Translations under genes and position numbers: made by a program
The notes under the pieces: generated by a model
Seen by the model: only the letters and a program-made list of their open reading frames with translations
Told to the model about the DNA's origin: nothing
Databases searched by the model: none
Shown: positions 34,903 through 39,588 of the stretch, piece by piece
Position numbering within the stretch: position 1 is the first letter of the stretch
Layout: each line of letters opens with the position of its first letter
DNA from: Mycobacterium cookii
Lineage (GTDB): Bacteria; Actinomycetota; Actinomycetes; Mycobacteriales; Mycobacteriaceae
Reading direction: 5' to 3'
DNA length: 64,000 nucleotides
Assembly (NCBI RefSeq): GCF_010727945.1
Contig: NZ_AP022569.1
Coordinates: 3,348,001-3,412,000, forward strand

Positions 34903-35256
34903 CTACGCCAGGCCGGGAACAGCGTCGGAAAGCTCTCGCAACAACGCCGCCTTGCCCTTGGCGCCGACGATCCGTTTGACCGGTTTGCCGTCCTTGAACA
35001 AGATCAGCGTCGGGATCGACACCACGTCGAAGTTGCGGGCCGTCTCGGGATTGGCGTCGACGTCGAGTTTCGCGACGGTCAACTGGCCTGCCGAGTCGGC
35101 GGCGATCTCGGTCAGCACCGGTGCGATCATCTTGCAGGGCCCGCACCAGGTTGCCCAAAAGTCAACCAGCACAGGCGTATTGCTGGACAGCACGTCGCTG
35201 TCGAAGGAGGCGTCGGAGACATCCACGGGTGCGCCGGTGGACTCGGTGTGTGTCAT
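34903..35256 (-). CDS. trxA: thioredoxin
   Basis: 117 aa with the classic fold and active site [13 protein letters not shown]. The cis-Pro is in [13 protein letters not shown]. It reduces protein disulfides with electrons from TrxB. Corresponds to M. tuberculosis TrxC (Rv3914). It lies 14 bp after trxB on the same strand, so the pair is an operon. Confidence 0.96.
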
Positions 35257-35270
35257 CGTTGGTACTCCAA

Positions 35271-36266
35271 TCAGAGTGTCGCCGTCGCCGGAGATCCGGC
35301 GGGTTGAGTCTGGGTCCGTTCGGCCGGTTCGGCGTGTTCGGCCAGCCAGCGTTCGGCGTCGATGGCCGCTGAACAGCCGGTGCCTGCGGCGGTGACGGCT
35401 TGCCGGTAGGTGTGGTCGACGAGGTCGCCGGCGGCAAACACGCCGTCGACGGAGGTATAGGTCGTGTTGCCGGTGACCCGCACGTAGCCGTCCTCGTCGA
35501 GATCCACCGCGTCGCGCACCAGTTCGGAGCGCGGGTCGTGGCCGATGGCGACGAACACGCCGGTCACCGGCAGGGTGGACACCTTGCCGGTCTTGGTGTT
35601 CTTCAGCCGCAGGCCGGTCACGGTGGTGTCGCCTTCGACGGCTTCCACCACGCTGTTGGTGACGAAGGTGATCTTTTCGTTGGCCTGCGCCCGCTCGAGC
35701 ATGATCTTGGAGGCGCGAAACTCGTTGCGGCGGTGTACAAGTGTGACGCTGCGCGCGAACTTGGTCAGGAAGGTGGCCTCTTCCATCGCCGAGTCGCCGC
35801 CGCCGATCACAGCGATGTCCTGGTCGCGGAAGAAGAAGCCGTCGCAGGTGGCACAGGAGCTCACGCCGCGGCCCAGGAGGTCCTGCTCACCGGGCACATG
35901 CAGGTAGCGCGCGGCGGCACCCATCGCCAGGATGACGGCGCGGGCCCGCAGCGTCTCGCCTTCGGCGGTGGTGACTGATTTGACGGGGCCGTCCAGCGAC
36001 ACCGATTCCACGTCGTCCATCCGCAGATCGGCGCCGAACCGCAGCGCCTGCTCGCGCATCTGCTCCATCAACTCGGGCCCCAGGATGCCCTCGCGGAAAC
36101 CGGGGTAGTTCTCAACCTCAGTCGTGGTCATCAAGGCTCCACCGAAGGACGTGCCTTCGAACACCACCGGTGCGAGCTGCGCACGCGCGGCGTACAGCGC
36201 TGCGGTGTACCCCGCAGGTCCGGAGCCGATGATGATCACATCGTGGACAGTGGATGACGGGGTCAT
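35271..36266 (-). CDS. trxB: thioredoxin reductase
   Basis: 331 aa, low-molecular-weight FAD/NADPH enzyme. FAD site [16 protein letters not shown], redox pair CATCDG (about residue 144), NADPH site GGGDSAMEE and C-terminal FAD motif [16 protein letters not shown]. It transfers electrons from NADPH to thioredoxin. It is followed by trxA, and preceded by the anti-sigma gene on the same strand after 74 bp. In M. tuberculosis this cluster is linked to SigM. Confidence 0.97.
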
Positions 36267-36340: not shown

Positions 36341-37054
36341 CTACGGCCGGAGCACAATCCTGTCAGCCAACAGGCCGGTGTCGGCGGAACTGCAGGTCGG
36401 GGTCACCGCAAGCGCCGAGACGGCGCCGGGCGTGTCGCCCGGTAACAGCAACAGGATCGCCGGTCGACCGCCGATGTCGACGGGCCGCGCGCCCAGCGGA
36501 CGGGCGTCGGCCGGATACCCCAACCCGGTCAGGCACGAGGCGCGACGGTGTGGATCGGTCAGCGCCCCGAAGTCCGGGCGGATGTCGAGCAGGGCGAGGA
36601 TCTGCTGATCCGACAGCGGGATCGCCGCGGGCGGTCGTGACACGGTGATGTGTTCGATGGTGGTAGGCCGGCTCGGCGTCGACTCCGGGGCCGTGATCAG
36701 CGCCCTGGTGCCCAGCCAGATTGCGACGGCGACCGCCGCCAGCCCGGTCGCCGCGACGGCCAACCGCGCCGAGCGGGGCAGGCCGCCGCGGTGTACGGCG
36801 TGCTGTTTACCCAGCGTGGCCCGGATCCGGTCGACGGCAGCGGGGTCGACCTCGGGTGCCGACGACGGATCGGAGCCCAGCGCGGCGACATCACGACGGA
36901 CCCGGTTCAGCGCGCGCATGGTGTTCTGGGCATCCGGATCGCTGCGGACTCGTTTACGCAGCTGAGCGGCAGTATCGTCATCGACCAGACCGGCCTGCAG
37001 GTCGGCGAGGGCGTCCACGCTCGGCGCCGAATCATCGTACCGGTCGTCGCCCAT
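36341..37054 (-). CDS. rsmA: anti-sigma-M factor RsmA (Rv3912 family)
   Basis: 237 aa. A cytoplasmic N-terminal part (about 1-95: DALADLQAGLVDDDTAAQLR, VRRDVAALGSD) that would hold SigM, one membrane segment (about 103-121: LAVAATGLAAVAVAIWLG) and an extracytoplasmic domain (about 140-237) with two Cys. No HxxxCxxC zinc motif, so it is not a zinc-type anti-sigma domain. In M. tuberculosis it lies directly next to sigM. Here 1.9 kb containing a PAS-GGDEF gene on the other strand separates the two. Confidence 0.85.
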   Translation of the reverse strand: MGDDRYDDSAPSVDALADLQAGLVDDDTAAQLRKRVRSDPDAQNTMRALNRVRRDVAALGSDPSSAPEVDPAAVDRIRATLGKQHAVHRGGLPRSARLAVAATGLAAVAVAIWLGTRALITAPESTPSRPTTIEHITVSRPPAAIPLSDQQILALLDIRPDFGALTDPHRRASCLTGLGYPADARPLGARPVDIGGRPAILLLLPGDTPGAVSALAVTPTCSSADTGLLADRIVLRP

Positions 37055-37253
37055 TAGCCCCAGTGTCCGACATTTTGGATGAATATTCCATGAGGATCAC
37101 CCGCTGAGCCTACGAAAATGAGCCGTTGAGTTTAGACTCAGACGAAGCTGAGGAATTTTCAGTTAAGGGGCGAACTGAGCGGCGTGGGGATATCGGACCC
37201 CCACTGCCGCGCCGACGCGGGACAACTCTGGCAGACCACGTCAGGAGAACGCG
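37055..37253. promoter_or_regulatory. A+T-richer divergent region before the PAS-GGDEF gene
   Basis: 199 bp between the anti-sigma gene and the GGDEF gene. The part at 37070-37170 is clearly lower in G+C than its surroundings. It holds short inverted repeats: GAGT-TTAG-ACTC (about 37128-37139) and CTGA-GGAATTT-TCAG. The anti-sigma gene must now use a promoter here, because sigM is no longer directly upstream of it. Confidence 0.45.
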
Positions 37254-38996
37254 GTGACGGTAAGCGCCCTGAAACAGATCGACCACACGCAGCGTCATAC
37301 TCCGGCCGAACTGGCTATCGCCGGCGCGGGCGGACAGCAGTATCAATTGCTGGTCGATCACAGCCCGGTCGCCATTTGTGTGCACGTCGACGGTCGCTAC
37401 GTCTACGTCAACGAGACCTTGGTGCGCAACATGGCGGCGCGGTCGGCAGACCAGCTGCTCGGGCGCAAGATCACCGACTTCGTTCATCCGGACTCCCTGG
37501 CCGCGGTGCGTCAGCACATAGCGTCACGGCGGGAGTACGGCGACAGGACCCCACCCCTGGAGATGATGATCGTCACGCTCGACGGCGCCACCCGTGCGGT
37601 AGAGGCGCTGGCGATCCGGACGCGGTGGGAGGGCCGGCCCGCGCACAAGGTGGTCTTCCGGGACCTCACGATGCAGAAAGCCACCGAGGCGAATCTGCGC
37701 TTCCAGGCCGCTTTGGTGGCCCACGTCAGCGACGCCATCATCTCCACCACCACCTCCGGGTATGTGACCAGCTGGAATCCGGCGGCGGAGGTGATCTACC
37801 GGCGGCCGGCTGTCGACGCGTTGGGCCTGCCGATCGGCGGGGTCCTGGGGGCCGATCTCGACCTGGCGGCGATCGTCGCGAGCGGAGGAGTGGTACACAC
37901 TACGCACCGGGTCGGTGACGGATCGGAGCTGACGGTGCGGGTCTCGGTGTCCAGGATGGACGACGGATTTGTGGTGTCGTGCGCGAATCAGACGGCGCTG
38001 CGGCGCGCTGAGCGGCAGTGCCAGATGGTGGTGGCGTCGCTGCAAGAAGGTGTCGTCGTCATCACGGCAGACGGCACGGTGGAATCGGTCAACCCGGCGA
38101 CGCTGCGTATTTTCGGCGCGCCGGTGGCGGGCGTCGATATCGTCGAGTTCGCGAAAGTGGCGGAGGTGTCGGTATACGACGCGAACGGTCGGCTGCTCAG
38201 CTGGGACGAGCGCCCGGTCATGGAGACCCTCAAGCGCTCTCCGCGCCGAGGATGCATCTACGGCCTCGATCGACTGAGCGACGGTGAACGGATCTGGGTG
38301 TCGATCAACTGGTCGCTGCTGGACCCCGCCGATCCGGAGCGGTCGTCGGTGTTGATGTCGATCGTCGACATCACCGAGCAACACAATGCCCATCAGCAGC
38401 TGGCGTACCAGGCCACCCACGATGTCCTGACCGGGTTGCCCAACCGCGCCCACCTGGTGGCGTTGATCAACGATGCGATCGGGTCTGCCGAATATCGCTG
38501 GGGTGCAGTCCTTTTCATCGATCTCGACAAGTTCAAAGTCATCAATGACGAGCTGGGCCACCACGCCGGCGATACGGTTCTCGAGGTGGCGTCGCAGCGG
38601 CTCCGGGCAGCGTTGGGCCCCGACGACATCGTCGGCCGGGTCGGCGGCGACGAGTTCGTCGCGTTGTTGGCCGCTCCGATACAGCGCGTTAAAGTCAATG
38701 CCCTTGTCCGGCGGTTACATACGGCGCTGCGCAAGCCGATCCGCATCCGCGATGAAGGCCCCTGCGCGCCGACGATCCGCGCCCACGTCAGCGCCAGCAT
38801 CGGCGTCGTCGCGGTGCAACCCGACGAGCAGCGCTGCGCCGCAGAGATGTTGCGCGCCGCCGACGCCGCGATGTACCGAGCCAAGGAGACTGGTGCGGCG
38901 ACGTGCCACTCCAGTGACGCCGCCGATGTGGTGGTGCGACGCCAGAAGCCCAACCGCCGTGCCGCGCAGCCGGTTCGGGCGGGAATGACGGGCTAG
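37254..38996 (+). CDS. PAS-PAS-PAS-GGDEF diguanylate cyclase
   Basis: 580 aa, soluble. Three PAS-like sensor domains: about 29-140 (YQLLVDHSPVAICVHVDG, YVNETLV), about 155-245 (HVSDAIISTTTSGYVTSWNP) and about 260-375 (SLQEGVVVITADGTVESVNP). A GGDEF domain follows (about 390-545) with HDVLTGLPNRAHL, FIDLDKFKVINDELGHHAGD and an intact RVGGDEF. The GGDEF motif is preceded by GPDDIVGRV, so the RxxD inhibitory site is absent. There is no EAL domain. It should make cyclic di-GMP in response to a cytoplasmic ligand or redox signal. GTG start with AGGAGA upstream. It ends in a CTAG shared with the convergent sigM stop. Confidence 0.93.
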   Translation: MTVSALKQIDHTQRHTPAELAIAGAGGQQYQLLVDHSPVAICVHVDGRYVYVNETLVRNMAARSADQLLGRKITDFVHPDSLAAVRQHIASRREYGDRTPPLEMMIVTLDGATRAVEALAIRTRWEGRPAHKVVFRDLTMQKATEANLRFQAALVAHVSDAIISTTTSGYVTSWNPAAEVIYRRPAVDALGLPIGGVLGADLDLAAIVASGGVVHTTHRVGDGSELTVRVSVSRMDDGFVVSCANQTALRRAERQCQMVVASLQEGVVVITADGTVESVNPATLRIFGAPVAGVDIVEFAKVAEVSVYDANGRLLSWDERPVMETLKRSPRRGCIYGLDRLSDGERIWVSINWSLLDPADPERSSVLMSIVDITEQHNAHQQLAYQATHDVLTGLPNRAHLVALINDAIGSAEYRWGAVLFIDLDKFKVINDELGHHAGDTVLEVASQRLRAALGPDDIVGRVGGDEFVALLAAPIQRVKVNALVRRLHTALRKPIRIRDEGPCAPTIRAHVSASIGVVAVQPDEQRCAAEMLRAADAAMYRAKETGAATCHSSDAADVVVRRQKPNRRAAQPVRAGMTG

Positions 38997-39544
38997 CCAG
39001 CCGGGCGACGCGTGTCGCTGTGTAGATGGCCCAGTATCGCGGCGAGTCGCGCCCGCGCGCGGGCGCAGCGGCTCTTGACGGTGCCTTCGGCCACACCGAG
39101 CATCCGGGCGGTGTCGGCAACCGAGTAGCCGTGCATGTCGACCGCCACCACCGCTGCGCGCTGCTCGACGGGCAGGTGCATCAGTGCCCGCTGCACCGCG
39201 ATGGCCGTCTCGACCTGTGCGGTCCGGTCCGACACCGGGTACACGTCGTCGAGCGCGACGGTGGGATGGATCTTGTTCCGCCGCAGCCGATCCAGGCACG
39301 CATTCACCACGATGCGATGCAACCAGCTGCTGACCGCGGCGTCGTGGCGGAACGAGCCGGCGCCGCGATGCGCGGACACCATCGCCTCTTGCAGAGCGTC
39401 TTCGGCGTCCTCGGCGCTACCACTGGTCAACCGGGCGAGCCGGTGCAGGTGTCGGTGGTGGCGATAGAAGAGCTGCTCGAAGGCGTAGCGGTCGCCCGCG
39501 ACATGAGCAGCCAGCAGTTCTGCGTCGCTGCGTTGTTCTGCCAC
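38993..39544 (-). CDS. sigM: ECF sigma factor SigM
   Basis: 183 aa, group IV sigma factor. Region 2 (about 20-90: DRYAFEQLFYRHHRHLHRLA, DALQEAMVSAHRGAGSFR, SWLHRIVVNACLDRLRR) and region 4 (about 112-170: LPVEQRAAVVAVDMHGYSVA, GVAEGTVKSRCARARARLAA). It directs RNA polymerase to stress and cell-surface genes and should be held by RsmA. Downstream of murJ on the same strand (44 bp gap). The usual downstream anti-sigma gene is displaced; instead the PAS-GGDEF gene converges, and the two stops share CTAG. Confidence 0.93.
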   Translation of the reverse strand: MAEQRSDAELLAAHVAGDRYAFEQLFYRHHRHLHRLARLTSGSAEDAEDALQEAMVSAHRGAGSFRHDAAVSSWLHRIVVNACLDRLRRNKIHPTVALDDVYPVSDRTAQVETAIAVQRALMHLPVEQRAAVVAVDMHGYSVADTARMLGVAEGTVKSRCARARARLAAILGHLHSDTRRPAG

Positions 39545-39588
39545 GGCCGGACATTAACCAATCCCCGTTGACCCGGCACTTCACCCTG

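Follow-up and report, generated by a model that had tools for sequence, protein, structure and literature searches.

Genes for sigma factors and their anti-sigma factors usually stay together, which should match the amounts of the two proteins. One close described system is the sigM-rsmA pair of mycobacteria (Rv3911-Rv3912), for which an excerpted account identifies Rv3912 as RsmA, the anti-sigma factor of SigM, and says that SigM controls ESX-4 (PMC11329110), and a further point of reference comes from Streptomyces, where the excerpted text of PMC8325347 describes RsiG as an anti-sigma factor dependent on cyclic di-GMP (c-di-GMP). Here we analyze a 64,000-nucleotide stretch of Mycobacterium cookii (contig NZ_AP022569.1, positions 3,348,001 to 3,412,000; the whole stretch is called the window below), which has the same sigma and anti-sigma genes and adds, between them and on the opposite strand, the gene of a diguanylate cyclase with three PAS domains.

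The cyclase gene was found between sigM and rsmA in 0/106 other mycobacterial sigM loci, a set made up of 45 best-match sigM loci (the window's own excluded) and 61 further loci, the latter being those of 60 genomes hand-picked, and thus non-random, from the listed rows plus that of genome G165. All 45 best-match loci lack the cyclase and have rsmA directly after sigM in the same orientation, with a sigM-rsmA gap of -8 to 125 bp in 40 of them; in the other five the alignment did not locate the rsmA start. The 61 further loci contained the cyclase in 0/61, an rsmA match in 51/61 and trxB in 59/61 cases, and in each of five relatives examined trxB, trxA and cwlM follow. The comparison of the sigM-trxB interval, which the original prediction had proposed, contradicts an ancestral arrangement common in mycobacteria, an origin that we reject, and on this comparison of loci the position of the cyclase is derived, an insertion.

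Looking beyond the sigM locus, a draw of 396 genomes from the genus (the window's own included) showed cyclases 60-66% identical to the window's in five of the 395 others, and these five occupy three contexts ({G030, G339}, {G165, G230} and G261), all away from sigM. A search of 383 genus genomes that were at least 99% complete added no cyclase closer than these relatives, and a scan of genome contigs with the cyclase returned no Mycobacterium title among the best 80 of 243 records, a set from which near records may be omitted. In G261 (L156:9075-12384), the orthologous cyclase lies divergent beside a second open reading frame (ORF), whose identity to cyclases of the family is about 40%. Among the titles and opening lines of abstracts that a literature search listed, with subscription journals mostly outside its range, none concerned a cyclase gene between sigM and rsmA.

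The gene order in the window is trxA-trxB-rsmA on the minus strand, the PAS-GGDEF cyclase at 37254-38996 on the plus strand and sigM at 38993-39544 on the minus strand, in agreement with the original prediction that an opposite-strand gene separates sigM from its anti-sigma gene, the coordinates and strands of which were correct. The features of the locus are:

34903 to 35256, minus strand: trxA, thioredoxin (PF00085 and TIGR01068 above cut-off)
35271 to 36266, minus strand: trxB, thioredoxin reductase (TIGR01292, 414 bits, cut-off 343)
36341 to 37054, minus strand: rsmA-like anti-sigma gene (homologous to, and syntenic with, the gene that relatives have after sigM)
37055 to 37073, minus strand: native rsmA leader, kept (ATGTCGGACACTGGGGC...), matching the empty-site leaders of G189, G148, G282, G030 and G339
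37074 to 38992, no strand: insert of about 1.92 kb, delimited against empty sites, with ends accurate to a few bases
37074 to 37253, no strand: divergent spacer, AT-richer, with the presumed promoters of the cyclase (plus) and rsmA (minus) and overlapping TANNNT words near 37133
37254 to 38996, plus strand: PAS-PAS-PAS-GGDEF diguanylate cyclase, 580 residues, GTG start preceded by AGGAG
38403 to 38900, plus strand: GGDEF domain, about residues 384-549, with GGDEF 464-468 intact and G455-P-D-D458 at the RxxD site
38993 to 38996, no strand: CTAG, common to the convergent stops of the cyclase and sigM, read from the sequence
38993 to 39544, minus strand: sigM, ECF (extracytoplasmic function) sigma factor (NF007225, 305.9 bits, cut-off 190)
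39551 to 39556, minus strand: TAATGT, a hexamer resembling a -10 element and 6 nt away from the sigM GTG start, in a leaderless layout

The borders of the insert can be drawn from empty sites (G148, G189, G282, G030 and G339), in which 35 to 75 bp separate the sigM stop from the rsmA start, the last of them forming a leader of the type ATGxCGGACACTGGGGC. The window matches that leader as far as 37073 and, at the other end, the cyclase begins directly at the sigM stop, with the two stop codons overlapping by 4 bases; the insert is therefore placed at about 37074-38992. Of the repeats that were listed (20 of 26 direct families, 25 of 44 inverted ones), none was taken for the border of a mobile element. 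The GC content at third codon positions is 0.83 in the cyclase, compared with 0.83 in sigM, 0.84 in rsmA and 0.85 in trxB, and since the cyclase equals its neighbors in this measure it is unlike a recent foreign gene, leaving recent foreign acquisition not supported. As a separate observation, the 5' end of sigM around 39541-39556 (AATGTCCGGCCGTGG) appears to resemble the rsmA leader at 37055-37073 (AATGTCGGACACTGG), both on the minus strand.

Relatives of the cyclase allowed us to trace the arrangement beyond M. cookii. In protein searches that scored 8000 candidates and listed the best 120 each, the listed proteins included 68 cyclase relatives (P0002-P0069) at 72-84% identity, followed by a drop, and a tree of the window's cyclase with 66 of these 68 (P0046, P0069 and the outer-group P0119 having been left out beforehand) united all 67 rows in one clade with 100% support in the Shimodaira-Hasegawa-like approximate likelihood ratio test. 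The sister of the window's cyclase is the pair of P0004 and P0008, and the contig size of P0004 equals that of no listed RsmA or SigM. When measured in the window's alignment columns, the proteins of 64/69 clade rows stop four or more residues short of the window's C-terminus, with P0011 equally long.

To assess linkage, we matched cyclase records with RsmA or SigM records, among listed entries, that had an identical longest-contig size. By this measure 9 of the 68 clade cyclases were linked to a listed RsmA and 3 of the 68 to a listed SigM, with about 0.5 expected for either, and the observed counts were reached in at most 4 of 2000 trials. The outer-group control gave 1/51 for RsmA and 1/51 for SigM, one of these matches being due to chance, as its contig of 2,037 bases has no room for the two proteins, and the other lying on 2,717 bases. 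Consecutive numbers in the protein names revealed a further linked pair (QOG14_5365, the cyclase P0042, and QOG14_5366, the RsmA P0217), for a total of 13/68 clade cyclases tied indirectly to sigM or rsmA. On one contig of 3,086 bases, the two proteins, of 576 and 237 residues, occupy about 2.4 kb, and are therefore near neighbors. Linked members occur in both main branches of the clade, and as the least similar of them (P0061) is only 74% identical to the window's cyclase, the residence of the gene at this locus appears to be old. The protein search and the equal longest-contig sizes together reject a one-species oddity, and by these records the arrangement spans a lineage of mostly uncultured mycobacteria.

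The inserted protein looks like an active, feedback-released diguanylate cyclase. Its GGDEF domain is matched by PF00990 (E = 6e-38, 130.5 bits, cut-off 23.8), and the original prediction of three PAS domains with an intact GGDEF motif is well supported by Pfam, NCBIfam and AlphaFold together, as opposed to Pfam alone: Pfam gave a clear match to the first PAS domain and a weak match to one later PAS, the NCBIfam sensory_box model matched two stretches, and an AlphaFold model (37-sequence alignment, mean predicted local distance difference test score 81.9, predicted template modeling score 0.50) showed three PAS-like runs of secondary structure followed by a GGDEF fold, with solved GGDEF and PAS-GGDEF structures as its best structural matches. 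Because the highest 19-residue hydropathy mean is only 1.66 and falls within the second PAS fold (residues 190-208), a membrane segment is unlikely. We claim no cofactor for the PAS domains, as structural matches to heme and other PAS proteins were indecisive.

The catalytic set, consisting of the GGDEF motif plus D423, N431, H436, D440 and K544, which we take to be metal and substrate residues, is conserved in 69/69 clade rows. Product-inhibited cyclases have an RxxD site, which we scored by an R at position -9 and a D at position -6 relative to the GGDEF motif's first G. This site is lost in the window (G455, D458) and broken in 65/69 clade rows (R replaced by G in 59, R kept but D replaced by G in 6; intact in 4), including 13/13 of the cyclases linked to sigM or rsmA, compared with an intact site in 48/51 outer-group proteins (broken in 3/51) and 14/17 other homologues (broken in 3/17). 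From the kept catalytic residues and the lost RxxD it follows that the clade has preserved the active site while the feedback site has decayed. Three outer-group proteins (P0104, P0105 and P0110) have also lost the inhibitory arginine, and as they cluster in the tree at a distance from the clade, this is a separate loss. The genome has 10 GGDEF matches, this cyclase included, 6 of which adjoin EAL, and no PilZ match, so that any c-di-GMP receptor would be of another kind.

We also examined what else occupies the sigM-rsmA junction in other genomes. Inserts unrelated to the cyclase were found in three of them: about 2.8 kb with a DprA-like gene (PF02481) in G064 (L254, G064:C1:6140500-6152000), about 1.1 kb with an ORF lacking a Pfam match in G023, and about 0.45 kb in G067. 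The G064 insert, which also has an ORF with a sub-threshold phosphoribosyltransferase match, is possibly a defense cassette. In addition, an rsmA match is absent between sigM and trxB in 5/61 loci (L226, L236, L239, L245 and L251), where sigM and trxB are 82-109 bp apart and sigM therefore lacks its customary anti-sigma neighbor, and the 9.5 kb after sigM in G097 showed no match to rsmA or trxB. The junction thus seems permissive for insertions.

A TANNNT element followed by 6 (43 loci) or 7 (3 loci) bases and then GTG is present in 46/46 sigM upstream regions (the window, at 39542-39556, and the 45 best-match loci), compared with 4% of shuffles, which suggests that sigM is transcribed as a leaderless mRNA from its own conserved element. 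Upstream of rsmA, the DNA beyond the leader has been replaced, and the gene now faces a spacer common to the divergent cyclase, 199 bp long with the leader included and with a GC content of 0.56 compared with 0.67 for the window. As the gene now preceding it lies on the other strand, rsmA very probably needs its own promoter, as the original prediction had proposed, most plausibly within this divergent spacer. Promoter motif scans of the 199-bp spacer gave no more matches than chance, and Rfam at gathering scores placed no RNA or riboswitch in the region, its matches in the rest of the window being three tRNAs. The insertion may not have been the first to give rsmA separate control, since in Mycobacterium mucogenicum, according to the excerpted text of PMC6917791, sigM and rsmA mRNAs change oppositely with growth phase though the genes are directly linked.

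The identity of the two flanking genes rests on different kinds of evidence. Whereas sigM clears the NCBIfam SigM equivalog threshold (NF007225), rsmA had no family match in the Pfam copy that we searched and scored below threshold against the general anti-sigma model NF052375 (NCBIfam; 23.7 bits, cut-off 100). Its product aligns as a homologue of the gene after sigM in relatives, and a precomputed PF27063.1 assignment is present on all 120 listed RsmA rows; on this homology, RsmA is here a putative SigM-binding inhibitor. Hydropathy divides the protein into an N-terminal part, a single hydrophobic stretch at about residues 96-122 and a C-terminal part, which contains its only two cysteines (174 and 221). 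HxxxCxxC, the motif of zinc-type anti-sigma factors, was found in 0/121 RsmA rows (the window's own counted twice). With trxB following sigM without a cyclase in 59/61 loci as well, the redox coupling raised by the original prediction found no support. The c-di-GMP motif of RsiG, given as E(X)3S(X)2R(X)3Q(X)3D in the excerpted text of PMC8325347, was likewise found, in strict or relaxed form, in 0/121 of the same rows.

Taken together, we consider it somewhat more probable than otherwise that an active, feedback-free cyclase with three PAS domains was inserted between sigM and rsmA in one mycobacterial lineage, splitting the pair, and has been mainly a passenger there. On this account the enzyme would make c-di-GMP without product feedback once its PAS domains sense some signal, and its product would join a c-di-GMP pool to which the genome's nine other GGDEF proteins belong. 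In this scheme sigM would be read from its own conserved leaderless promoter and rsmA from the spacer common to the divergent cyclase, so that the sigma/anti-sigma pair would become two transcription units. The position of the cyclase would then reflect an insertion-tolerant junction and would not be proof of a SigM circuit, a passenger role supported by the other inserts and rsmA losses at the junction and also by the five 60-66% identical cyclases in three other contexts.

Several observations weigh against this account. Gene order and orientation are seen in the window alone, and the linkage in the clade (13/68) is indirect and silent on the other 55 members. The RsmA tree does not unite the linked rows, and the empty-site genomes G189, G030 and G339 fall inside them, so that the original expectation of a cyclase confined to one clade stands for the window and its listed close relatives in the cyclase tree but not in the RsmA tree, which mixes in these three genomes; holding the 11 linked RsmA rows together against 10 without gave p = 0.023 in the approximately unbiased test. 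Loss of the insert, a second insertion or an exchange of the locus, needed besides a single insertion, would fit this pattern. Exchange is favored since several cyclases and their RsmA partners have discordant positions in the two trees: the cyclases that P0011 and P0032 group with have partners in the opposite group of the RsmA tree, and the cyclase and RsmA of the window are likewise split between the trees. Finally, the long-kept linkage could reflect selection for co-regulation, and the broken feedback site in every linked cyclase hints at a changed role.

These last points bear on the alternatives. Control of SigM by c-di-GMP is possible, and its precedent makes it a reasonable hypothesis, with the five cyclases away from sigM and the other inserts at the junction weighing against it. 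In its local form, the cyclase would act on SigM-RsmA through c-di-GMP made on the spot or through a contact of its GGDEF domain with SigM that would displace the anti-sigma factor. We judge this improbable, even with 13/68 clade members linked to one of the two genes, the loss of the inhibitory site and a Streptomyces precedent, in which the GGDEF domain of RmdB binds sigma-WhiG, RsiG is then not in the complex, and a second cyclase, CdgE, also interacts with sigma-WhiG (all from the excerpted text of PMC13232838). The RsiG-type motif is missing from all 121 RsmA rows, and near relatives retain sigM-rsmA without a cyclase there. Moreover, WhiG is not an ECF factor, unlike SigM. It is equally doubtful that the SigM system has gained the cyclase as its third component, a feedback-free c-di-GMP source whose product or GGDEF surface sets the amount of free SigM; were this true, an ECF sigma/anti-sigma pair would be under local c-di-GMP control.

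A less improbable, though still unlikely, alternative is that the selected trait was the new divergent promoter region, which would tie rsmA to the signal of the cyclase and free it from sigM, with the consequence that SigM output would follow whatever conditions switch the cyclase promoter. The insertion left rsmA just its short leader, the AT-rich spacer has overlapping -10-like words on both strands and sigM retains its own conserved upstream element, all of which would suit such rewiring; on the other side, the motif matches in the spacer are no better than chance, and the sigM and rsmA mRNAs of M. mucogenicum already diverge with the genes linked. That the gene is decayed, or an artefact of assembly or annotation, is hardly credible given the single-contig genome, the intact frame and catalytic residues, the linkage to rsmA or sigM elsewhere in the clade, and an 80-kb contig encoding P0001 (561 residues, 100% identical over 97% of the query, and counted as the window's own).

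A lineage with a signaling enzyme gene long tolerated between the pair is a natural test of whether a sigma factor and its anti-sigma factor must be one transcript. The locus also points to a concrete candidate through which c-di-GMP could act on an ECF sigma factor of mycobacteria, and the clade-wide loss of RxxD beside a fully conserved active site makes for a specific biochemical prediction. In the RsiG/WhiG switch of Streptomyces, together with the RmdB-WhiG contact, c-di-GMP enzymes and a sigma/anti-sigma pair form one circuit, in contrast to the window, where RsmA is without the RsiG motif and the link is so far genomic only. Compared with the solved PAS-GGDEF structures PA0861 and DosP, the window's cyclase differs in having three PAS domains, no EAL and a lost inhibitory site. 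Mycobacteria also have bifunctional GGDEF-EAL cyclases, of which Rv1354c is one. Another, MSDGC-1, is likewise a GGDEF enzyme and is described as GGDEF-EAL in the excerpted text of PMC2994820, whereas the cyclase between sigM and rsmA joins its GGDEF domain to three PAS domains without EAL.

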